Part shown: piece by piece, positions 31,897 through 44,707 of the stretch | How positions within the stretch are numbered: the stretch's first letter is position 1 | Layout: the number at the start of each line of letters is the position of its first letter | The notes under the pieces: model-generated | Databases searched by the model: none | Told to the model about the DNA's origin: nothing | Seen by the model: only the letters and a program-made list of their open reading frames with translations | Origin: Actinomycetes bacterium | GTDB lineage: Bacteria > Actinomycetota > Thermoleophilia > BMS3ABIN01 | Assembly: GCA_021790115.1 (NCBI GenBank) | Contig: JAJYIM010000014.1 | Span: forward strand, 1-45,019 | Direction of reading: 5' to 3' | DNA length: 45,019 nucleotides | Made by a program: the position numbers and the translations under genes

Positions 31897-31935
31897 GCGC
31901 AGGCCTTTAGCCTGCGCAGACCCGAAACCCGAAAC
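31897..31935. repeat. AGGC hairpin repeat followed by CCCGAAA heptads
   Basis: GCGCAGGC (31897-31904) and GCCTGCGC (31910-31917) form an 8-bp hairpin, the same type as at 6710. Directly after it, ACCCGAAACCCGAAAC (31919-31934) is a 7-bp-period repeat like that at 40120. Confidence 0.5.
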
Positions 31936-33195: not shown

Positions 33196-34155
33196 ATGTC
33201 TTTCGAGCCGCCAATTGAACAGGTCAAGGGAAAAATTCGTGAAATGATAGTCGGTGAGGCCACCCGGGTTGGCGGGGAGTCCACATTCCCGTTTCATCTT
33301 TGGGAGGGTGGCATGCCAAACCCGCCGGTTGTTGCCATGGAAGTTTATGACGAGCCCCAGCGCGAGTGGCCCGAGGCTGTCCGCAAGGTTTACGAAGACG
33401 TTATGGACGACCCCGTTGCCTGGGCGAAAAAATGCCAGGATGAGTTTGGCGCCGACGCCATTGCCCTCAAACTTCAGAGCACCGACCCCAACGGAACCGA
33501 TGCCCCTCCGGAAGCAGCCGCAGAAATAGTGAAGAATGTCAACAGCGCTATTGACATTCCCCTGATTATCTATGGCACAGGTTCACCGGAAAAGGATACA
33601 GAGGTGCTGAAAAAAATTGCCGAGTCGCTTCCCGATGACAATATTCTCATTGGCCCGGTGGAAGAATCAAATCACCGCCAGATTGGCGCTGCGGCAATGG
33701 GCTACAAAAAGCCGGTAATCGCTTTTACTTCCATGGATGTGAACCTGGCCAAGCAGCTGAACGTGCTGTTGACCCAACTGGGGGTGCCGGATGACAAAAT
33801 CATCATTGACCCCACCACCGGCGCCTTGGGATACGGGCTGGACTATTGCTATTCTATTATGGAGAGAGACAGATTGGCTGCTCTTGCCCAAAATGACGGC
33901 AAGATGCAGATGCCCATATTTAATAATGTGGCTCCCGAGACCTGGAAGGCCAAGGAGGCCAAGGTTAGCGAAGAAGAAGAACCTACCTTCGGTGACGTTA
34001 CGACCAGGGGGATCCTGTGGGAGGCCGTCACTGCCACTTCCTTGCTTCTGTGCGGCTCGAACGTGCTGGTCATGCGCCATCCTGAGGCTGTGAAACTGGT
34101 GCGCAAAGCGATCGAGGGTCTTCAGGAGCAGGCTAAGGAGAAAATCGCATCATGA
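33196..34155 (+). CDS. acsD: Corrinoid iron-sulfur protein small subunit (acetyl-CoA synthase complex delta)
   Basis: 319 residues, CdhD/AcsD family, a TIM barrel that with AcsC binds the cobamide and carries the methyl group from AcsE to AcsB. Recognisable segments are IVGEATRVGGESTFPFHLWEGGMPNPPVVAMEVYD (first 20: IVGEATRVGGESTFPFHLWE), DAIALKLQSTDPNGTDAP, PLIIYGTGSPEKDTEVL, IDPTTGALGYGLDYCYSIMER and RGILWEAVTATSLLLCGSNVLVMRHPEAV. It is the first gene of the cluster, and its TGA overlaps the cooS ATG (ATGA), so translation is coupled. Length matches bacterial AcsD. Confidence 0.94.
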   Translation: MSFEPPIEQVKGKIREMIVGEATRVGGESTFPFHLWEGGMPNPPVVAMEVYDEPQREWPEAVRKVYEDVMDDPVAWAKKCQDEFGADAIALKLQSTDPNGTDAPPEAAAEIVKNVNSAIDIPLIIYGTGSPEKDTEVLKKIAESLPDDNILIGPVEESNHRQIGAAAMGYKKPVIAFTSMDVNLAKQLNVLLTQLGVPDDKIIIDPTTGALGYGLDYCYSIMERDRLAALAQNDGKMQMPIFNNVAPETWKAKEAKVSEEEEPTFGDVTTRGILWEAVTATSLLLCGSNVLVMRHPEAVKLVRKAIEGLQEQAKEKIAS

Positions 34156-36110
34156 GTGATTCTGAAGAGACAAAGAAGAAGGCGGAGCCCCGCAAGAAAA
34201 CTATCGATCCAGCGGCGCTGGAGGTGCTGGCCAAGGCTGAGGCCGCCGGCATCAGCACTGTTTTTTCCCGCGTTGATGAAATGAAGGCCTGCCCGATCGG
34301 CGCCGCCGGCTCCTGTTGCCAGCTGTGCGCCATGGGCCCCTGCCGCCTGGTGGGAAAAGGAGCGGCGGAAAAGACGGGCATCTGCGGCGCCACCCACGGC
34401 ACGATCGGCGCCCGTTACATGGTCCGCGCTATTGCCGGCGGCGTAGCCGCCCATTCCGATCATGGCCGCGACATCGCCCGCACTTTGCTGGCGGTGGCAA
34501 AGGGACACGCCGGCAGCTACCAGGTCAAGGATACGGACAAGCTTTACCATGTGGCGGAAATGATGAATATTGCTACGGAAGGGCGAGAGGTCAATGACAT
34601 CGCCGCCGACGTGGCCCAAAAAGCGCTGGACAACTTCAACGGCACCGCCGGCGACGAGCTTACTTATGTTACCCGCGCGCCGGCCCGGCGGCAGGAGATC
34701 TGGCGCAAGTACGGGCTTGTCCCCCGCGGCGTTGACCGCGAAGTGGTGGAGAGCATGCACCGCACCCACGTGGGCGTAGACCAGGAGGCTGGGCACCTGC
34801 TGGACCAGGGCATGCGCACTTCACTGGCCGATGGCTGGGGCGGCGCCATGCTGGCGACTGACCTTTCCGACATTCTCTTCGGTACTCCCAAGCCGCTGGT
34901 TTCCCAGGCTAACCTGGGCGTGCTGAAGAAAGATGAGGTGAACATCATTGTTCATGGACACGAGCCGACGCTGTCGGAAATGATCGTCGCCGCGGCCCAG
35001 GATCCGGAGCTGATCGAATACGCGAAAAGCAAGGGCGCCGCCGGCATTAACCTGGCCGGCATCTGCTGCACGGCCAATGAGGTTTTAATGCGCCACGGCA
35101 TCCCGCCGGCCGGCAACTTTCTGCACCAGGAGCTAGCGATAATCACCGGCGCCGTGGAAGGGATGATCGTGGACGTGCAGTGCGTCTTGCAGGCGCTCTC
35201 GCCGCTGGCGCAGAAGTTCCACACCAAACTAATTACGACATCTCCAAAAGCGAAGATTCCGGGGGCGACGCACGTGGAGTTTGACGAGGAGCGTGCCCTG
35301 GAGACCGCCAAGGAGATCGTGAAGATGTGCATTGACAATTATGAGAACCGTGGCGACGTCGCCATCCCGGAGTATACCGGCGACCTGGTGGCGGGATTTT
35401 CCCACGAATACATCAATTACATGCTGGGCGGGCGCTACCGCGCCTCGTTCCGGCCGCTGAACGACAACATTATCAACGGCAGGATCCAGGGCGCTGTGGC
35501 GATTGTTGGCTGCAACAATCCCCGTGTCACCCAGGATGAGGGCATCATTTACCTGGTGCATGAGTTGATCAAGCGCGACATTCTGGTTGTCCAGACCGGC
35601 TGCGCCGCCCACGCTTCCGGCAAGCACGGCCTGTTGACGCCGGAGACGATGCAGATTGCCGGCGATGGCCTGCGCGAGGTCTGCGAAGCTGTTGGCATGC
35701 CGCCGGTGCTGCACCTGGGAAGCTGTGTTGACAACTCGCGCATTATGACCATATTAAGCCAGGTTGTCGAAGAAGGCGGTCTCGGCAATGACATCTCCGA
35801 TCTGCCGGTGGCGGCAATCTGCCCTGAGTATTACTGCGAAAAAGCCCTGGCGATTGGCACCTATGCCGCTGCTTCCGGCGTTTTCGTGGTATTCGGCGTC
35901 CGCAATCCGGTTGCCGACTGCACCGAGGTAGTTGACATCATGTCCAATGGCTGGGAGCAGAAGGTGGGCGGCCAGCTTGTCTTCGAGCCCGATTATGAAA
36001 AGATCCTGGAGATGGTGACCGGCCGCATTCAGGAGAAGCGCCAGGCTCTGGGAATCCATGAGGAAAAAGAGCGCGTGCTCTTCGATATGGCTGCCAGGCG
36101 TGAGTTGTGA
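34152..36110 (+). CDS. cooS: Anaerobic carbon monoxide dehydrogenase catalytic subunit
   Basis: 652 residues, Ni-Fe-S CO dehydrogenase (CooS/AcsA). It interconverts CO2 and CO and passes CO through a tunnel to AcsB. The N-terminal cluster cysteines are in KACPIGAAGSCCQLCAMGPCRL and GICGATHG (B/D clusters; about residues 45-80). C-cluster ligands are in GICCTANEVLMRHG, QTGCAAHASGKHGLL, LGSCVDNSRI and CPEYYCEKALAIGTYAAASG. A lysine/acidic N-terminal tail of about 20 residues precedes the fold. The gene overlaps acsD by 4 bp and is followed by acsB, so it is the AcsA component of the bifunctional complex rather than a stand-alone CODH. Confidence 0.96.
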   Translation: MSDSEETKKKAEPRKKTIDPAALEVLAKAEAAGISTVFSRVDEMKACPIGAAGSCCQLCAMGPCRLVGKGAAEKTGICGATHGTIGARYMVRAIAGGVAAHSDHGRDIARTLLAVAKGHAGSYQVKDTDKLYHVAEMMNIATEGREVNDIAADVAQKALDNFNGTAGDELTYVTRAPARRQEIWRKYGLVPRGVDREVVESMHRTHVGVDQEAGHLLDQGMRTSLADGWGGAMLATDLSDILFGTPKPLVSQANLGVLKKDEVNIIVHGHEPTLSEMIVAAAQDPELIEYAKSKGAAGINLAGICCTANEVLMRHGIPPAGNFLHQELAIITGAVEGMIVDVQCVLQALSPLAQKFHTKLITTSPKAKIPGATHVEFDEERALETAKEIVKMCIDNYENRGDVAIPEYTGDLVAGFSHEYINYMLGGRYRASFRPLNDNIINGRIQGAVAIVGCNNPRVTQDEGIIYLVHELIKRDILVVQTGCAAHASGKHGLLTPETMQIAGDGLREVCEAVGMPPVLHLGSCVDNSRIMTILSQVVEEGGLGNDISDLPVAAICPEYYCEKALAIGTYAAASGVFVVFGVRNPVADCTEVVDIMSNGWEQKVGGQLVFEPDYEKILEMVTGRIQEKRQALGIHEEKERVLFDMAARREL

Positions 36111-36114
36111 AAGC

Positions 36115-36144
36115 GGATCTTGGATGTTGGACATTGGACTTTGG
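36115..36144. repeat. Heptad array between cooS and acsB
   Basis: GGATCTT, GGATGTT, GGACATT and GGACTTT follow one another with a 7-bp period, filling the first half of the 78-bp gap. A normal ribosome site (GGAAGG) stands after it, before acsB. Confidence 0.7.
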
Positions 36145-36188
36145 AAAAAGCAGCCTGACTTTGGGGTGAAGCAAAGGAAGGAAGATAA

Positions 36189-38387
36189 ATGAGCAAGATC
36201 ATTGCGACATCAGTTATCGCCGGCGCCCACCAGTATGTCGCCGAGGCGGAAGAAGCTTTTGAGAAGGCAATGGACACGGCCGGCCCCGAAGCCACAATTG
36301 AGCTTCCCAATACAGGCTACTTCCTGCCGGTCATTTACGGGCTTACGGGCATCAAGGTGGAGAAGATCAAGGATATTGAGCAGGTGCTCAGGCATGCCCG
36401 TGAGCTGCTGCCTGAGGGTCCGGCCGGGCGTCTCTGGACTCCGTACCTGGGCACGGCGCTGGACGCCGGCGTCGCCACCCTCTTTTCCTGCGAGATCATC
36501 GAATCGCTGCGGTATCTGCTGGAGCCGGACTTCTACACGGCCACTGATTCCCCAACGGATGATAACCTCTGGCTGGGCGCCGCCGACGACCTCATCATGC
36601 GCGAGCGCGGCGTTGAGTTCGTGGACGGCACGGCGCCCGGGTTTGCCGCCATCACCGGCGCGGCCCCTGACGTGGAGACCGCCGTCGGGATCGCCAACCA
36701 GTTAAAGCAGAAAATGCTTTACGTGTTCATCGCCGGCAAGGACGGCGGCGTCAGCTTCGCCGAGCAGCTGGTTGAGGGCGGGGTGGACTTGGGTTGGAAT
36801 ACGCGCCTGGTGCCGTTTAGCCCTCATGTCTCCGGGCACATCTGGTCGCTGGGCTTCGCCGCGCGCGCGGCGCTGTCGTTTGGCGGCGTCGAGGCTGGCG
36901 ATTACCGCAAGGTGCTCAGGTACAACAAGGAGCGCATCTTTGCCTTTGTGCTGGCTTTTGGCGAAGTCACCGACAGGAAATACGCCGTGGCCGCGGGCGC
37001 CATCTCCTATGGTTTTCCCACGATTGCCACCAGTGACATACCCGAGATTCTGCCGACCGGCGTCTGTACTTACGAGCATGTCGTCAGCAATGTCGCCTGC
37101 GAGGAGATTGTCAACCGCGCCATAGATGTGCGCGGCCTCAAAGTCGTCGTCACGGAAGTGCCGGTGCCGGTCTCCTACAGCCCTGCTTTTGAGGGAGAGC
37201 GCATTCGCCGGGGCGAGTACTGGGTGGAGATGGGCGGTCCCAAGTCGCTTGGCTGCGAGTTCACCGAGATCGCCGGGGAAGTCGAGGATGGCAAGGTGAC
37301 TGTTGTCGGTCCCGAGATAGGCGATGTCGAGGAGGGCTCCACGATTCCAATCGCTATTCACGCCGAGGTGCAGGGCCGCAAGATGCAGAAGGATTTCGAG
37401 CCCATCCTGGAGCGCCAGGGCCATTCATTTTTTAACGAGGCCGAAGGCGTGCTGCACATGGGCCAGCGTGACACGGTCTGGATGCGGATCAGCAAGCGCG
37501 CTCATGACGCCGGCTTTACTTTTGAGCACCTGGGCAAGATTATTCACGCCCGCTACCATGCGGACTTCGGCGAAGTTGTTGATAAAGTTCAGATTACTGT
37601 TTATACAAAGCAGGAAGACGTGGAAAGGGTTCTGGAGCGCGCCCGCCTGGCATATCATGAGCGTGACGAGCGGCTAGGAAGTCTCACCGATGAAAGCGTC
37701 GACACCTTTTATTCCTGCATTCTCTGCCAGAGCTTCGCGCCGACGCATGTTTGCGTCATCACTCCCGAGCGCCCGGGGCTGTGCGGCTCCTATAACTGGC
37801 TCGATGGCAAGGCCGCCTACGAGATGAATCCAACGGGCGGCAACCAGCCGGTGCCCAAGGGCGAGACCCTCGATGAGGATCGTGGCCAATGGAGTGGCGT
37901 GAATGAATATGTCAAGGAACATTCCCAAGGCCAAGTTGAAGCTTTTAACACATATTCGATGATGGAAAACCCGATGACTTCCTGCGGCTGCTTCGAGGTG
38001 ATCAGTTGTGTGCTGTCCATGTGCAACGGCATCATGACGGTTAACCGGGAGTTCAAGGGAGACACGCCTTCAGGGATGAAGTTCTCCACCTTGGCCGGCT
38101 CGGTCGGCGGCGGCGTCCAGACTCCCGGCTTTTTGGGCCACTCCCGCTTTTATATGGGCTCGCCCAAGTTCATTGCTGCCGATGGCGGCATCAAGCGGCT
38201 GGTCTGGATGCCCAAGGAGCTTAAGGAAGAGATGCGGGAAATCCTGGAGAAAGCTGGCGAGCGTGCCGGGGTTCCAGACCTGGTCGACAAGATCGCTACC
38301 GAGGAAAATGGCAGCGAGGAAGCGGAAGTCTTCGAATACCTCCAGAAAGTCGGACATCCGGCGCTGGAGATGGAGCCGCTGTTCTAA
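36189..38387 (+). CDS. acsB: CO-methylating acetyl-CoA synthase
   Basis: 732 residues, the bacterial full-length AcsB (ACS alpha subunit). The N-terminal CODH-contact domain, absent from archaeal CdhC, is present. It joins a corrinoid-bound methyl group, CO and CoA at the Ni-Ni-[4Fe-4S] A-cluster. The A-cluster cysteines are all visible: Cys510, Cys513, Cys522 and Cys532 (CILCQSFAPTHVC, PGLCG) and the Cys599-Gly-Cys601 motif (TSCGCFE). These match the spacing of the Moorella enzyme. The N-terminus (ATSVIAGAHQYVAEAEEAF) and SFGGVEAGDYRKVLRYN are typical. It follows cooS by 78 bp and precedes acsC. A Ni-insertion factor gene (acsF/cooC) is not in the window. Confidence 0.96.
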   Translation: MSKIIATSVIAGAHQYVAEAEEAFEKAMDTAGPEATIELPNTGYFLPVIYGLTGIKVEKIKDIEQVLRHARELLPEGPAGRLWTPYLGTALDAGVATLFSCEIIESLRYLLEPDFYTATDSPTDDNLWLGAADDLIMRERGVEFVDGTAPGFAAITGAAPDVETAVGIANQLKQKMLYVFIAGKDGGVSFAEQLVEGGVDLGWNTRLVPFSPHVSGHIWSLGFAARAALSFGGVEAGDYRKVLRYNKERIFAFVLAFGEVTDRKYAVAAGAISYGFPTIATSDIPEILPTGVCTYEHVVSNVACEEIVNRAIDVRGLKVVVTEVPVPVSYSPAFEGERIRRGEYWVEMGGPKSLGCEFTEIAGEVEDGKVTVVGPEIGDVEEGSTIPIAIHAEVQGRKMQKDFEPILERQGHSFFNEAEGVLHMGQRDTVWMRISKRAHDAGFTFEHLGKIIHARYHADFGEVVDKVQITVYTKQEDVERVLERARLAYHERDERLGSLTDESVDTFYSCILCQSFAPTHVCVITPERPGLCGSYNWLDGKAAYEMNPTGGNQPVPKGETLDEDRGQWSGVNEYVKEHSQGQVEAFNTYSMMENPMTSCGCFEVISCVLSMCNGIMTVNREFKGDTPSGMKFSTLAGSVGGGVQTPGFLGHSRFYMGSPKFIAADGGIKRLVWMPKELKEEMREILEKAGERAGVPDLVDKIATEENGSEEAEVFEYLQKVGHPALEMEPLF

Positions 38388-38645: not shown

Positions 38646-39992
38646 GTGGCTCTAAGCGGTCTGCAAATTTTTAAGCTGCTGGCAAAGACCAATTGCAAGG
38701 AATGCGGTTTCCCCACCTGTATGGCATTCGCCATGCAGTTGGCTGCCGGCAAGACAGAGCTGGACAAATGCCCCTATGTTTCTGACGAAGCAAAAGCGGC
38801 GCTGGGCGAGGCGTCGGCGCCGGCGGTACGCAAGGTGACTGTTGGCGCCGGCGACCTGGCTGTGACCGTAGGCGAGGAGACTGTCATGTACCGGCATGAG
38901 AAGCGCTTTGAGAACATGCCGGGAATTGGCGTAATGATTACCGATGAGATGGATGACGCCCAAGTGGACGGCCTGCTGGGACAGCTTAAGGAACAGCAGT
39001 TCAATTACGTCGGCCGGACACTGCGGCCACGGGTTGCCGCCGTTAAGGCGGCCGATGGGGCGGCGCTGGCGGCCTTGGCCGCCAAGGTCGATGCCGGCTC
39101 AGGCGCAGCGCTGGTCTTAATGCACGACGATGCCGGCGTTTTGCAGGCGGCCGCCGGCCCCCTAAAGGATAAGAAGCCGCTGCTTTACGCCGCCACAGAA
39201 GCGAATTTTGACGCGGTTGCCGGCGTCGCCAACGAGCTGGAAGTGCCATTTGTGATCAAGTCGGACAGTTTTGACAAGCTGGCCGGACTGGGACAAAAAG
39301 CGCTGGACGGCGGCTTTAAGGAAGTAATGCTTGATCCTGCGTCGGGCAGCCTGGGCGATGTGCTAATGGACCAAACGCTTATCCGCCGGGCGGCTATCAA
39401 AAAAACGCTGCGGGCCCTGGGTTTCCCGACGATTGGCTTTCCCTGCAATATGACGGATGACAAAATGCTGGAAGCCGTCTACGCGGCGGTGTTCGTCGCC
39501 AAGTACGCCGGCATTGTCATCCTCTCTGATCTGGAGCCGGCCCGGACGCTGCCGCTCCTGTACCTGGGCCAGAACATCTACACCGATCCCCAAAAGCCGA
39601 TGCAGATGGAGCAGGGTGTTTATCCGCTTAATGAGCCCGGTCCGGAGTCGCCGATCCTGGTGACGACCAACTTTTCACTGACCTACTTTACTGTTTCCTC
39701 AGAGGTTGAAGCCAGCAAGGTCCCTGCTTGGCTGTGCATCATGGATGTGGAGGGCCAGTCGGTTCTTACCGCCTGGGCGGCGGGCAAGTTCGTTGCCGAC
39801 GCCATTGCGCCTTTCCTGAAGAAAAGCGGCATCGGGGAGAAGGCGCCGCACAAGAAAGTTGTTATCCCCGGCTACGTCGCCCAGATCTCGGGTGAGCTGG
39901 AAGAGGAGCTGGGCGACGGCTGGCAGGTGCAGGTGGGCGTGCGCGAGGCCGCCGACATACCAAAGTTCCTCAGACAGTGGAGTGCGAATTAA
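38646..39992 (+). CDS. acsC: Corrinoid iron-sulfur protein large subunit (acetyl-CoA synthase complex gamma)
   Basis: 448 residues. The N-terminal [4Fe-4S] domain has Cys17, Cys20, Cys25 and Cys42 (TNCKECGFPTC, DKCPY), the low-potential cluster that re-reduces Co(II). A TIM barrel (MYRHEKRFENMPGIGVMI onward) and a C-terminal cobamide-binding domain (SEVEASKVPAWLCIMDVEGQ, then KKVVIPGYVAQISGELEEEL) follow. With AcsD it shuttles methyl groups from AcsE to AcsB. The start is GTG with GGGAGTG upstream. It is separated from acsB by a 258-bp gap holding a MITE-like element, whereas such genes are usually adjacent. Confidence 0.95.
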   Translation: MALSGLQIFKLLAKTNCKECGFPTCMAFAMQLAAGKTELDKCPYVSDEAKAALGEASAPAVRKVTVGAGDLAVTVGEETVMYRHEKRFENMPGIGVMITDEMDDAQVDGLLGQLKEQQFNYVGRTLRPRVAAVKAADGAALAALAAKVDAGSGAALVLMHDDAGVLQAAAGPLKDKKPLLYAATEANFDAVAGVANELEVPFVIKSDSFDKLAGLGQKALDGGFKEVMLDPASGSLGDVLMDQTLIRRAAIKKTLRALGFPTIGFPCNMTDDKMLEAVYAAVFVAKYAGIVILSDLEPARTLPLLYLGQNIYTDPQKPMQMEQGVYPLNEPGPESPILVTTNFSLTYFTVSSEVEASKVPAWLCIMDVEGQSVLTAWAAGKFVADAIAPFLKKSGIGEKAPHKKVVIPGYVAQISGELEEELGDGWQVQVGVREAADIPKFLRQWSAN

Positions 39993-40148: not shown

Positions 40149-42146
40149 ATGGCCAACCAGACAGCGACCTTGCGTTCTTTTTCCCGCCCTGTCCCGGGTG
40201 ACGAGTTAAGACGTCCTCCCTGCGAAGTTGCCTGCCCGATACGTACGGATGCCCAGCGTTATATCCAGCTCGTGGCTGAGGGCAGGTCCGCTGAGGCGCT
40301 GGCAGTCGTGCGGAAGACAAACCCTCTGCCACAAGTGATCGGCCGTATCTGTCCGCATCCCTGCGAGGACGCCTGCCGCCGCGGCCAGGTGGATGAGCCG
40401 ATCGCTATCTGCAATTTAAAGCGGGTGGCTTCAGACGGGGCCAAGGCCGCGGAGCTGGGATTTAAGCCGCCTAAGGCAGCATTTACCACGGGGAAAAAAG
40501 TTGTCATCATCGGTTCCGGTCCATCGGGCCTGGCTGCGGCGCACGACCTGGCGCTGATGGGAGTGCAGCCGGTTGTTTTTGAGAAACAGCCCGAGGCCGG
40601 CGGTTTCCTGCGCAGCGGCATCCTGAGCTACCGCCTGCCGAAAAATATTCTCGACGAGGACATTGATTATATCCGTGGGATGGGCGTTGAGATCAAGACT
40701 GGCGTCAGGGTGGGAGAAGATGTGGATTTCAGCGATCTGGCGCAGGAATTTGACGCCGTGCTGATCGCGGTCGGGCTCTCTGAGAGCCGCTCGCTGCCGG
40801 TCCCGGGCGCCGGCCTGCCCCAGGTGCTACTGGCGGTGCCCTACCTGGAAGCGGTCAATGCCGGCCGCCCGGTGCCGGAGCTGGGGAAGGAAATCATCGT
40901 CATTGGCGGCGGCAACGTCGCCATTGATGTGGCCCGCTCCGCCAGGCGCCTGACCGGCGGAAAAGTGACGATGGTTTGTCTGGAAGCCGACTACGAGATG
41001 CCCGCCCATAGCTGGGAGATAGAGGACGCCACGGCCGAGGGCATTGGCATCATCTGCAGCCAGGGGCCGAATGCCATTATCGGCGAGGACAGGGTCGAGG
41101 GCCTGCAGGTGAAGAAATGCGAATCGGTCTTTGACGGGCAGGGCCGCTTCGCGCCGAAATTTTGCGAGACCGAGCTTTCCCTGATCTCGGGTGATACGGT
41201 TATCATCGCCATCGGGCAGATGTCAAATCTTGCTTTTCTACCAGATACAGGACCAGATATCAATGAGCGCGGCATCCTCATTTTTGACCGCGAGCAGTGC
41301 ACAACTACCCGCCGCGGCGTCTTTGCCGGCGGCGAGGTGGTCACCGGCCCGGGTGCGGCGGTAAATGCGCTGGCCAGCGGCAAGCGGGCGGCAATTGCCA
41401 TAGCGCATTACCTTGGCGTGGCTGTTGACTTTCCGGAAGAGCCGGTCGCAATCGGCGAGGTTCCCGCGGCTGTTGCTGAGAAAGTAAAGCCGGCGCCGCG
41501 AAGGAAAATGCCGGCCCGGCCTGCCGGCGGGCGGCTTCAGGATTTCAATGAAGTGGAGCTGGGGCTAACTGAAGTGGAGGCCCGCTGTGAAGCTTCCCGC
41601 TGCCTGCTTTGCACAGCCGGCGCCAGGTACTCGCAGCTAAAATGCATCGCCTGCCTGACATGTGTGCGCGTCTGTCCTTATGGAGCCCCCTGGGCCGACA
41701 AGGACGGCCTCGGCGGCATCTCGCCGGAGCGCTGCCAGGCGTGCGGCATCTGCTTTACCCAATGCCCGGCCAAAGCGATCGACCTGACGCTTCTTTCAGA
41801 GAATGACATTGAACGGGAGATCGGGGTTGCCCTGGCAAACGAATCGGGCGATGTCGAATTTGGCTGCTGGTATTCGCAATCGAGAGTCGAGCCCGAGGCG
41901 GGACTGGTGTTGCTCCCGTGCACGGGGCGTTTGAGCGCCGGGCTCATTTTAAATGCTTTTGAGCAGGGCGCAGGCAAGGTTTATGTCGCCGTCTGCAGTG
42001 AAAGCGAAGACGGTCATTTTATCCATGGTCACCGGCAGGCCAGGGCGGCGGTGGCAGAAGCGCAAAAGGCGATCGAGGAGGCCGGGCTCGGGCCGGAATC
42101 GATTGAAGTCCGCCTCGAGCCGGAGTTGAAATGTAAGAAAATATAG
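40149..42146 (+). CDS. GltD-like FAD/NAD(P) oxidoreductase fused to 2[4Fe-4S] ferredoxin and FlpD/MvhD-like domain
   Basis: 665 residues. The N-terminal domain has cysteines in PPCEVACP and ICPHPCEDACRRG, as in GltD/NfnB-type reductases. Next come an FAD site (VVIIGSGPSGLAAAHDLA) and an NAD(P) Rossmann site (IIVIGGGNVAIDVARSARRL), with IAIGQMSNL and the FAD end motif GVFAGGEVVTGPGAAVNALASG. A two-cluster ferredoxin follows (CIACLTCVRVCP and CQACGICFTQCP, about residues 497-540). The C-terminal 100 residues resemble FlpD/MvhD (LLPCTGRLSAGLILNAFEQGA), but several of its cysteines are missing. It lies between acsC and metVF. I infer an electron-transfer partner, possibly bifurcating, for methylene-THF reductase or the corrinoid protein. 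The exact partners are not known. Confidence 0.85.
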   Translation: MANQTATLRSFSRPVPGDELRRPPCEVACPIRTDAQRYIQLVAEGRSAEALAVVRKTNPLPQVIGRICPHPCEDACRRGQVDEPIAICNLKRVASDGAKAAELGFKPPKAAFTTGKKVVIIGSGPSGLAAAHDLALMGVQPVVFEKQPEAGGFLRSGILSYRLPKNILDEDIDYIRGMGVEIKTGVRVGEDVDFSDLAQEFDAVLIAVGLSESRSLPVPGAGLPQVLLAVPYLEAVNAGRPVPELGKEIIVIGGGNVAIDVARSARRLTGGKVTMVCLEADYEMPAHSWEIEDATAEGIGIICSQGPNAIIGEDRVEGLQVKKCESVFDGQGRFAPKFCETELSLISGDTVIIAIGQMSNLAFLPDTGPDINERGILIFDREQCTTTRRGVFAGGEVVTGPGAAVNALASGKRAAIAIAHYLGVAVDFPEEPVAIGEVPAAVAEKVKPAPRRKMPARPAGGRLQDFNEVELGLTEVEARCEASRCLLCTAGARYSQLKCIACLTCVRVCPYGAPWADKDGLGGISPERCQACGICFTQCPAKAIDLTLLSENDIEREIGVALANESGDVEFGCWYSQSRVEPEAGLVLLPCTGRLSAGLILNAFEQGAGKVYVAVCSESEDGHFIHGHRQARAAVAEAQKAIEEAGLGPESIEVRLEPELKCKKI

Positions 42147-42217: not shown

Positions 42218-42886
42218 ATGATTACAGCTGAACGTAAAGAATTTGATGAAATCAGGCAGATGACCGATCCGCACGAGAACGTGCTCGTGGCCGGCTGCAA
42301 CACCTGCGTGGCTGTTTGCCTGACCGGCGGGGAGAAAGAAGCCGAGCAGCTTGCCCAGCAGCTGCGCATCGCCCGCAACCATGATGGCATCAAGGGCAAG
42401 GTTGAGGCGGTTACCGTTCTTAGGCAGTGCGAGAATGAGTACCTTGATTCGATCAGTGAGCAGGTGGAAAGGGCCGACATTGTTCTCTCTACTGCCTGCA
42501 GCATCGGTCCCCAGGGGCTGGTTTTCCGCTATCCCGCCAAACGGGTGGCGCCGGCAATGAACACAAATATGATGGGGTATGTCAAGGAGCATCATGTCTG
42601 GACCGAATACTGCGCCGCCTGCGGGTCGTGCCTGATTGCGGCCACCGGCGGCATCTGTCCCGTCGCGCGCTGCGCCAAGACGCTCCTTAACGGCCCCTGC
42701 GGAGGCTCCCAGAATGGCCGCTGCGAGATCTCGCCGGAAGTCCCCTGCGCCTGGCAGGAGATTTATGACCGGCTGGCGGCCCTCGGTGATCTTGATACGT
42801 TAAAAAGGATCGTTGGCCCCAAAAAATGGAATCTTTCCAATTCCGGCGGCCCGCGCACCATGAAAAAAGAAGGGTTCGAGCCATGA
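42218..42886 (+). CDS. metV: MetV, zinc-binding partner of methylenetetrahydrofolate reductase
   Basis: 222 residues of the methylene-tetrahydrofolate reductase C-terminal domain family (MetV). The cysteine-rich signature is present: AGCNTCVAVCLTGG near the N-terminus, STACSIGPQGL, and the C-terminal YCAACGSCLIAATGGICPVARCAK with LNGPCGGSQNGRC and VPCAWQ. In Moorella and other acetogens MetV binds MetF and mediates electron delivery to it. The stop codon overlaps the metF ATG (ATGA), confirming coupled expression. The start ATG lies after a heptad repeat and lacks a Shine-Dalgarno sequence. Confidence 0.92.
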   Translation: MITAERKEFDEIRQMTDPHENVLVAGCNTCVAVCLTGGEKEAEQLAQQLRIARNHDGIKGKVEAVTVLRQCENEYLDSISEQVERADIVLSTACSIGPQGLVFRYPAKRVAPAMNTNMMGYVKEHHVWTEYCAACGSCLIAATGGICPVARCAKTLLNGPCGGSQNGRCEISPEVPCAWQEIYDRLAALGDLDTLKRIVGPKKWNLSNSGGPRTMKKEGFEP

Positions 42887-43791
42887 AGACAGGCTCGAAC
42901 CTGGAGCGAATCCTGGAGTCGGGCGCTTTCGCGGTTACAGCCGAGCTTGGCCCGCCAAAGTCGGCCGATCCCCAGGTTATTATTGACAAGGCGGCAATTC
43001 TCAAAGACCATGTTGATGCGGTAAACATAACAGACAACCAGACGGCCATCGTGCGCATGTCAAGCGCGGCGGCTGCGAAAATCTGTATCGAGCAGGGCCT
43101 CGAGCCCGTGATGCAGATGACTTGCCGCGACCGCAACCGGCTGGCAATCCAGGCCGATATCCTGGGGGCGGCGGCGCTGGGCGTAAAGAACCTGCTTTGC
43201 CTCACAGGGGACCACCAGTGTTTCGGGAACCATCCGCAGGCGCTTGGGGTTTTCGATCTTGACTCAATTACCATGATCAGGATGGTCAAGGATATGCGGG
43301 ACGGCCCAATGTTTCAGAACGGCGAAGAGATTACCGGGCCGGCGCCGAAGCTGTTTATCGGCGCCGCCGCCAACCCCTACGCCGATCCGTTTCCGTACCG
43401 GGCGCTCAGGCTGGCCAAGAAGGTTGATGCCGGGATAGGTTTTGTCCAGACGCAGATAGTCTTCAACGTAGACAAGTTTGAAGAATTCATGCACCAGTGC
43501 CGTGAGCTGGGGGTGAGCGAGCGCTGCCGCATCCTTGCCGGCGTCGCGCCGCTCAAAAGCGCCGGCATGGCGAAGTACATGAAAAACCGGGTGGCCGGCA
43601 TGGACGTCCCCGATAAAATCGTCACCCGCATGTCCGGCGCCAAAGATGCCCAGGATGAGGGCATTCAGGTTTGCGTTGACATCATCAACCGCATCCGTGA
43701 AATCGAAGGTGTCGCGGGCGTCCATATCATGGCTGTTGAATGGGAGACCTCGGTGTCTGAAATAGTGAGAAGGGCGGGGCTGAAGAAATAG
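42883..43791 (+). CDS. metF: 5,10-methylenetetrahydrofolate reductase
   Basis: 302 residues from ATG 42883, which overlaps the metV stop. It is a FAD TIM-barrel enzyme reducing methylene-THF to methyl-THF, the last methyl-branch step before AcsE. Segments typical of the family are FAVTAELGPPKSADPQ, VDAVNITDNQTA, MQMTCRDRNRLAIQADILGAAALG, NLLCLTGDH, FIGAAANPYADP, GIGFVQTQIVFNVDKFEEF and AGVAPLKSAGMAKYM. The frame is open upstream to 42826 within metV, but those codons do not resemble MetF, and AGAAGGG precedes ATG 42883. It acts with MetV and probably with the flavoprotein upstream. Confidence 0.95.
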   Translation: MKTGSNLERILESGAFAVTAELGPPKSADPQVIIDKAAILKDHVDAVNITDNQTAIVRMSSAAAAKICIEQGLEPVMQMTCRDRNRLAIQADILGAAALGVKNLLCLTGDHQCFGNHPQALGVFDLDSITMIRMVKDMRDGPMFQNGEEITGPAPKLFIGAAANPYADPFPYRALRLAKKVDAGIGFVQTQIVFNVDKFEEFMHQCRELGVSERCRILAGVAPLKSAGMAKYMKNRVAGMDVPDKIVTRMSGAKDAQDEGIQVCVDIINRIREIEGVAGVHIMAVEWETSVSEIVRRAGLKK

Positions 43792-43801
43792 TTCCCGGTT
43801 T

Positions 43802-43898
43802 AAAGTTCAAAGTTCCAAGTTCCAAGTTCCAGGTTAGGGAGAGCTTGGATAAGATCTTTAACAGCGAACTTTTGAACAAACTTGGGACTTGGAACTTT
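43802..43898. repeat. Facing GTTCCAA heptad arrays between metF and acsE
   Basis: AAAGTTCAAAGTTCCAAGTT continuing with CCAAGTTCCAGG (43802-43833) faces GAACTTTTGAACAAACTTGG continuing with GACTTGGAACTTT (43866-43898). The arrays have a clean 7-bp period (AAGTTCC) and can form a long hairpin with a loop of about 32 nt. The acsE ribosome site GGAGGG lies just beyond. Confidence 0.8.
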
Positions 43899-43918
43899 CA
43901 ATTGAGATTGGAGGGTTT

Positions 43919-44707
43919 ATGAAGGCAATTGCTGAGAACATCAATGTGATGAACAAGAAGATCGGGGAGGCAATGCAGGCGCGCAACCCGGAGCCCGTCC
44001 AACAGCTGGCGCGTGAGTGCACCGAGGCCGGCGCCGACCTGCTTGACGTTAACCTGGGTCCGGCGCGCAAGGACGGCCCGGCGCTGATGGAATGGATGGT
44101 GAAGACAATCCAGGAGGTCTCCGACCTGCAGCTCTGTCTTGATACCAGCAATCACGAGGCGATGGAAGCCGGCATCAAGGCATGCGCCAAGCCGCCGCTG
44201 ATCAATTCCTTTAGTGCCCAGCCCGACAAGATGGAGAACATTCTGCCGCTGGCGGCGAAGTACGATTGCGAGATAATCGGGCTGACGATGTCCACCCATA
44301 TTCCCGTGGACGCCGATGAGCGCATCGGGCTCGCCTACGAGCTGGTGGCGGCCGCCAACGCCCTGGGCGTTCCCAACGAGCGCATCTGGATTGACCCGAT
44401 CATCCTGCCGATTGGCGTTGAAGTGGGTCAGGCGCATGCAGTGGCGGTGCAAAATGTGCTAAAATCGCTGCCCGACCTGTTTGAGGAGCCGGTGCAGGCC
44501 ACCTGCGGCCTTTCCAATGTCTCCAATGGCGCGCCGGATGAGTTGCGTAGCCCGATTGAGCGTGTTTTTCTGCCGATGCTGGTCAGCGCCGGCATGACCT
44601 CCGCCATTTGCAATGTGAAGGATCCGGAGATGATGCGCACCATCAGGCTGATCAAGGACTTGAAGAATGAAGCGCTTTATTCGGTCTCGGACGCCGAGCT
44701 GAAATAG
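43919..44707 (+). CDS. acsE: Methyltetrahydrofolate:corrinoid/iron-sulfur protein methyltransferase
   Basis: 262 residues from ATG 43919 (GGAGGG 4 nt upstream). The frame is open further up to 43889, but that part is heptad repeat. It is a pterin-binding TIM barrel that transfers the methyl group of methyl-THF to Co(I) of AcsC/AcsD. Recognisable segments are AENINVMNKKIGEAMQARNP, GADLLDVNLGPARKDGP with the Asp of the folate site, LQLCLDTSNHEAMEAGI, LINSFSAQPDKMENILPLA, WIDPIILPIGVEVGQAHA and CGLSNVSNGAP. It follows metF in the same orientation and links the methyl and carbonyl branches. Confidence 0.95.
   Translation: MKAIAENINVMNKKIGEAMQARNPEPVQQLARECTEAGADLLDVNLGPARKDGPALMEWMVKTIQEVSDLQLCLDTSNHEAMEAGIKACAKPPLINSFSAQPDKMENILPLAAKYDCEIIGLTMSTHIPVDADERIGLAYELVAAANALGVPNERIWIDPIILPIGVEVGQAHAVAVQNVLKSLPDLFEEPVQATCGLSNVSNGAPDELRSPIERVFLPMLVSAGMTSAICNVKDPEMMRTIRLIKDLKNEALYSVSDAELK

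Follow-up and report, generated by a model that had tools for sequence, protein, structure and literature searches.

We analyzed a window of 45,019 nucleotides that constitutes a whole contig of a MAG (1.81 Mb; 97.6% complete) whose named relatives are Actinomycetota MAGs. The window ends in a gene cluster with the order acsD-cooS-acsB-acsC-fusion-metV-metF-acsE-nfnA, in which nfnA is cut by the contig end (Table 1). The gene referred to here as the fusion encodes GltD-like, ferredoxin-like, and FlpD (MvhD)-like parts in one chain. The first-pass annotation of this DNA had described such a protein, and its open reading frame proved exact and its domains were recovered by Pfam as claimed. The same annotation placed the gene directly before metV-metF, which we confirmed (same strand; gap to metV, 71 bp), and noted an NfnA-like subunit after acsE, which we recovered as a partial NfnA/PyrK-like reading frame.

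Table 1. Features of the fusion gene and its neighbors (positions in the window; residues of the fusion protein)
Feature	Position	Strand	Remarks
acsD - cooS/acsA - acsB	33196..38387	+	
acsC, corrinoid protein large subunit	38646..39992	+	
GltD - two 4Fe-4S - MvhD-like fusion gene	40149..42146	+	665 aa; ATG start; complete ORF
Fusion, N-terminal Fer4_20 domain, residues 22-100	40212..40448	+	Pfam; C25, C29, C68, C72, and C76 invariant in 49 fusions
Fusion, FAD/NAD(P)H Pyr_redox_2 domain, residues 116-411	40494..41381	+	Pfam; GltD/NfnL/StnC fold
Fusion, nucleotide motif VTMVCLEADYEMPAHSW, residues 273-289	40965..41015	+	Acidic CLE; YRR there in NADPH-type NfnB
Fusion, SRCLLC and two ferredoxin 4Fe-4S motifs, residues 485-545	41601..41783	+	Ten Cys invariant in 49 fusions
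Fusion, MvhD (FlpD)-like tail, residues 565-665	41841..42143	+	C573, C591, and C616 kept; C622 equivalent is Gly; family-specific C662
metV (DUF5981)	42218..42886	+	Single copy in genome
metF (MTHFR)	42883..43791	+	Single copy in genome; 4-bp ATGA overlap with metV
acsE, methyl-THF:corrinoid protein methyltransferase	43889..44707	+	
nfnA, 5' part, cut by contig end	44742..45017	+	NfnA/PyrK-like; E, 8.5e-35

The decamer ACCCGAAACC occurs five times in the window (positions 31920, 39999, 40013, 40122, and 42198; 0.05 expected). Four of the copies are intergenic and lie on both flanks of the fusion gene in opposite orientations; the decamer is perhaps a dispersed repeat or a structured element. 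At 43806 to 43901, the spacer of metF and acsE has a second inverted repeat, AAGTTCCAAGTTCC.

The Pfam search located a 4Fe-4S dicluster at about residues 494 to 545 of the fusion and an FlpD domain (PF02662) at residues 576 to 654 (49.7 bits; gathering cutoff, 22.3) that is without about 20 N-terminal profile positions. The closest curated model was the GltD-like subfamily PRK12771 (NCBIfam NF009410), and the fusion scored below the curated cutoff of this model (473 versus 516 bits). Residues 492 to 655 matched the C-terminal ferredoxin-MvhD end of HdrA2. An AlphaFold2 model of the fusion, built from an alignment of 49 fusions, had a pLDDT of 89.7 and a pTM of 0.87. Over its first approximately 550 residues, the best matches were the chains of NfnABC and StnABC that carry GltD (Z, 46 to 49), with NfnL and GltD as the next matches. 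The tail was also folded alone (pLDDT, 90.5) and compared with the PDB; four chains had E values of <1e-3, all of them MvhD (Z, about 10; next best, 6.5). The predicted fold of the tail is that of MvhD, with low pLDDT at the C-terminal tip, where C662 sits. A PDB sequence search with MetV retrieved no relative with a solved structure.

In the alignment of the 49 fusions, C25, C29, C68, C72, C76, and ten cysteines between residues 485 and 539 are all invariant, and of the 18 other genomes in the window's family, 16 have orthologs (70 to 83% identity). The fusion is not a chance reading frame because of these orthologs and of the invariant ferredoxin-type cysteines. Regarding the N-terminal cluster proposed in the first-pass annotation, the Fer4_20 domain is in place, but it holds five of the usual eight GltD-type ligands, the number also described for StnC (PMC7483475). 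The annotation had further claimed an FlpD/MvhD-like tail that misses several cysteines. Canonical MvhD has five (FxCxxC, CSGR, and GCxxxxC). The equivalents C573, C591, and C616 are retained in 45 to 49 of the 49 fusions, and the second cysteine of the CxxC motif is missing in all 49. The last MvhD cysteine is present in 36 fusions and replaced by glycine (i.e., G622) in exactly 13, the sampled members of the window's family; the same 13 have a cysteine aligned at position 662. The tail in this family consequently has three of the five canonical cysteines plus C662, so that the claimed loss amounts to two ligands and is qualified by a family-specific cysteine near the C terminus. C662 looks like a moved ligand for the lost MvhD cysteine. 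Because two of the five canonical cysteines are lost, the presence of a 2Fe-2S cluster in the tail of this family is uncertain.

Full fusions among 120 near relatives were confined to the window's family, apart from one remote copy. Across the phylum, the fusion was detected in 35 of 396 sampled genomes belonging to more than a dozen families, with some copies cut by contig ends. Genes in the neighborhoods were called by a simple ORF and homology method, and copies for which only metF was called were counted as metVF linked, given that the gap fits metV. With this definition, 37 distinct copies from Actinomycetota had sequence downstream of the fusion; in all of them, metV and metF were the next recognizable genes, and 4-bp overlaps occurred at several of these fusion-metV(F) loci. 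A metV-type domain was found in 32 of the 35 genomes with a fusion versus 82 of the 361 without one (Fisher P, 5e-16, with kinship ignored). In the three exceptions, the sequence ends at contig breaks, one of them with a truncated metV. One Actinomycetota genome has a stop that splits the fusion into GltD-ferredoxin and MvhD, which could be a sequence error.

An orphan glutamate synthase-like reductase unlinked to metVF in relatives, the possibility raised against the original proposal, is thus not what the Actinomycetota loci contain. In Bacillota, 9 of 13 fusions are not beside metVF but adjoin unrelated genes (e.g., an FMN reductase gene). Because of these nine copies, the GltD-MvhD architecture is a more general module that can serve other partners. 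The fusion itself might be a general NAD(P)H oxidoreductase of this kind, whose place before metVF reflects only common regulation with Wood-Ljungdahl genes. The nine Bacillota copies beside other genes and the related GltD-ferredoxin proteins in nuo operons are compatible with this explanation. However, metV itself, not just the cluster, adjoins the fusion in the 37 Actinomycetota and four Bacillota loci, translational overlaps occur, the MvhD tail is retained, and the metVF-linked fusions have at least two separate origins (see below); we regard a general oxidoreductase as quite unlikely.

Two other arrangements of GltD-domain proteins were observed in these neighborhoods. Seven Actinomycetota loci (L194, L205, L206, L207, L208, L209, and L215) contain a GltD-type oxidoreductase-ferredoxin fusion inside nuo-like operons, as if it provided a GltD-type input to complex I. 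In family f26 (L189 to L193, L197, and L199), an 815- to 828-aa GltD-domain protein and a 527- to 539-aa protein follow acsE in the acs cluster; the pair may represent a formate dehydrogenase module linked to NAD(P)H.

In Bacillota, the Moorella-type order acsE-HdrC-HdrB-HdrA-MvhD-metV-metF (HdrA, 1,433 to 1,495 aa) alternates with acsE-fusion-metV-metF, the latter in four genomes. Families of the same class as the source genome have a 1,440- to 1,610-aa HdrA that includes a GltD domain and is surrounded by MvhD, metV, metF, HdrC, and HdrB. Fusion- and HdrA-associated copies are separated by at least three changes on the MetF tree and at least four on the MetV tree. The source genome encodes single copies of metF and metV, both at the fusion locus, and its complete Hdr set is located elsewhere, on contig C26. 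There, two genes of ferredoxin type and one for a PyrK-like NAD-binding protein come after HdrC-HdrB-HdrA-MvhD, which in gene content is an HdrABC-Flx-like arrangement with its own predicted NADH input. These observations agree with the earlier suggestion that a single GltD-type fusion stands in place of HdrABC-MvhD: it occupies the same slot before metVF, and the genome's own HdrABC-MvhD set does not accompany metF. The fusion appears to replace the four-gene HdrCBA-MvhD complex found before metVF in other acetogens. Given that the Moorella-type HdrA already holds a related GltD domain (published for M. thermoacetica HdrA; PMC9430772), the fusion can be read as an input module of MetVF that dispenses with HdrA and HdrBC.

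We also searched the source genome for the components of other known reductases. No HdrA part was detected in the fusion or its cluster; HdrA is encoded on C26, together with the Flx-like genes, and on C40, where an AprA-like gene accompanies it. HdrB and HdrC were likewise not found in the fusion cluster, and CCG domains (HdrB) were restricted to C26, C40, and C30. As regards RnfC2, the genome has one MetV domain, and the genes around metV contain no RnfC-type domain. The nuoEFG genes are not upstream of metVF, and NuoF-type genes were found only on C38 and C54.

Several other redox gene sets were noted. On C40 of the source genome (L140), genes for a 140-aa ferredoxin-like protein, an AprA-like flavoprotein, an HdrA-like protein, and an HdrA-FlpD protein lie in a row, an AprBA-QmoAB-like set that suggests sulfur-compound respiration in the source organism. 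On C30 of the source genome (L138), genes for two GltD-like proteins (564 and 565 aa) are repeated next to other duplicated genes (399/438 and 358/358 aa) in a tandem cluster. In two loci (L203 and L213), metV-metF is followed by a gene for fused HdrC-HdrB (about 465 aa); L203, from Actinomycetota, combines it with a GltD-MvhD fusion and has no HdrA.

The second Rossmann motif of the GltD domain contains CLE in 44 of the 49 fusions and also in the Moorella-type HdrA (L268; 1,487 aa). In M. thermoacetica, NADH is oxidized by the HdrA subunit (PMC9430772, PMC8515935). The CLE motif suggests NADH as the donor for the 44 fusions. The fusion in the window can probably take electrons from NADH. The other five fusions (L052, L143, L196, L198, and L203), all metVF linked, have the YRR of NfnB proteins at this site, an NADPH-like motif. 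Such a motif is by itself an indirect indicator of cofactor preference.

All trees described here were obtained by quick searches. In the full 119-row tree, the GltD domain of the fusion fell into a 54-row clade with most of the fusions (SH-aLRT, 100). This clade lay next to the GltD domain of the metVF-linked HdrA from Bacillota, with SH-aLRT values of 90 (full tree) and 100 (reduced tree). The five YRR fusions were placed outside the clade, and a single origin of all fusions was rejected by the AU test (41 rows; LG+G4; p-AU, 1e-55). On this basis, it seems that similar modules came to lie upstream of metVF on at least two occasions, and the separately recruited modules probably use different pyridine nucleotides.

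Given the common cluster and the homology of the fusion's GltD domain to NfnB, a two-subunit transhydrogenase of the fusion and its NfnA-like neighbor could be imagined, and the first-pass annotation had considered the two as partners. In relatives, however, nfnA is directly followed by its own nfnB (about 500 aa), and the source genome encodes NfnB on contig C46 (3.7 kb). The fusion's GltD domain is only about 35% identical to NfnB, and the 665-aa protein, with its extra domains, is not an NfnB/NfnL chain (about 470 to 500 aa) paired with NfnA. The transhydrogenase is very unlikely, and the partnership was not upheld; by comparison with the relatives, the gene at the contig end is half of an ordinary NfnAB pair. 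A second idea, that the fusion reductively reactivates the corrinoid protein AcsCD, would fit the adjoining acsC and low-potential clusters. It was rejected in view of a separate RACo-type activator in the same genome (contig C57; E, 4e-103). Furthermore, a Bacillota locus with a metVF-linked fusion (L258) has a RACo-like gene in its acs cluster (638 aa; recognized by eye from the start of the sequence), and the Bacillota fusion adjoins metV and acsE, not acsC. We give reactivation hardly any credence.

We consider it fairly probable that the fusion is the NAD(P)H-oxidizing electron-input subunit of MetVF. NADH has a potential of about -320 mV. With methylene-THF at -200 mV (PMC9430772), the transfer is downhill, and the reaction can proceed without bifurcation; for this reason, and because HdrA is missing, the simplest reading is non-bifurcating and NADH dependent. 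We infer a complex with MetVF, a preference for NADH over NADPH, and the absence of bifurcation. In the proposed path, whose cofactor order and between-protein steps are all part of the model, NADH would reduce the GltD-domain FAD by hydride transfer, and single electrons would then travel via the 4Fe-4S clusters of ferredoxin type into the MvhD-like tail. The tail would dock on MetV, which would pass the electrons to the flavin of MetF, and MetF would reduce methylene-THF to methyl-THF for AcsE. The model is based on the linkage to metVF, the role of MvhD in solved complexes as a connector between input module and acceptor (PMC12350162), the NADH role of Moorella HdrA, and the finding that Sporomusa MetVF was pulled down with HdrBCA and MvhD (PMC9430772). 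Two points weigh against the model: genes may be linked without their products forming a complex, and MetVF of some acetogens, when purified without any input subunit, can work with ferredoxin (PMC8515935).

Alternatively, the GltD FAD might act as in NfnL and, without HdrA, split the electrons of NAD(P)H between methylene-THF (via the tail and MetVF) and ferredoxin. The best structural matches of the fusion are indeed chains of bifurcating complexes (NfnABC, StnABC, and NfnL), and energy would be left over in the transfer from NADH to methylene-THF. The fusion is nevertheless without the HdrA TrxR-like domain, the carrier of the bifurcation signature residues, NfnL bifurcates jointly with NfnS, and NfnA here has its own NfnB. 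To our knowledge, GltD-type proteins of glutamate synthase do not bifurcate. Despite the common view that the related reductase of Hdr type bifurcates (PMC9430772, PMC8515935), we regard bifurcation by the fusion as rather unlikely. It is unlikely, too, that one GltD flavin without HdrA couples NADH to both methylene-THF and ferredoxin while the MvhD-like tail is the common MetV plug of input modules.

The coupling of methylene-THF reduction to energy conservation, and the contribution of Hdr modules to it, is a live question of acetogen biochemistry. Lineages in which MetVF has changed between two partners, HdrCBA-MvhD and an HdrA-free NAD(P)H module of one gene, represent a natural experiment, and a comparison of the two would show directly whether HdrA-based bifurcation is what Hdr modules add. 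The fusion precedes the methyl-forming enzyme of CO2 fixation across many little-known anaerobic bacteria. A gltD gene has been listed in actinobacterial CODH/ACS neighborhoods (PMC7325909). The fusion type is absent from the reductase classifications of PMC8515935 and PMC13040438, and our literature search on GltD, FlpD, or MvhD with MetF found no description of it; a 2021 article in ISME J that deals with the pathway in Actinobacteria may mention the fusion.

Among known systems, the fusion resembles the HdrCBA-MvhD-MetVF reductase (type IV, 6S; Moorella thermoacetica), with which it shares MetV, MetF, an MvhD-type domain directly before metV, the position in the acs cluster, and a related GltD-type NAD(P)H/FAD domain (about 42 to 46% identity to that of Moorella HdrA; same CLE motif). 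It differs from this reductase by the absence of the HdrA TrxR-like bifurcating domain, HdrB, and HdrC, and GltD, ferredoxin, and a degenerate MvhD domain form one 665-aa chain instead of a 1,487-aa HdrA plus MvhD. The proposed model, MetVF with one NADH-oxidizing subunit, is like that of RnfC2-MetVF (type III, 3S; Acetobacterium woodii), whose input subunit is unrelated (i.e., RnfC type with a MetV domain). An exchangeable NADH module before metVF also characterizes the X-type NuoEFG-MetVF of Dethiosulfatarculus (PMC8515935), which uses NuoEFG genes rather than a GltD-MvhD fusion. StnC of StnABC and NfnA of NfnABC (8oh5, 9bov, and 9n5u) likewise combine GltD, with a reduced N-terminal cysteine set, and a ferredoxin region, but they have a NuoG/FdhA-like C terminus and NuoE and NuoF partners, and NADP(H) binding has been proposed for their GltD part. 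Finally, the tail shares its predicted fold and three of five cysteines with MvhD (5odc_D, 7bkb_F, and 8rvu_F), from which it differs in being fused and in having lost the second CxxC cysteine in all fusions and the last cysteine in the window's family.
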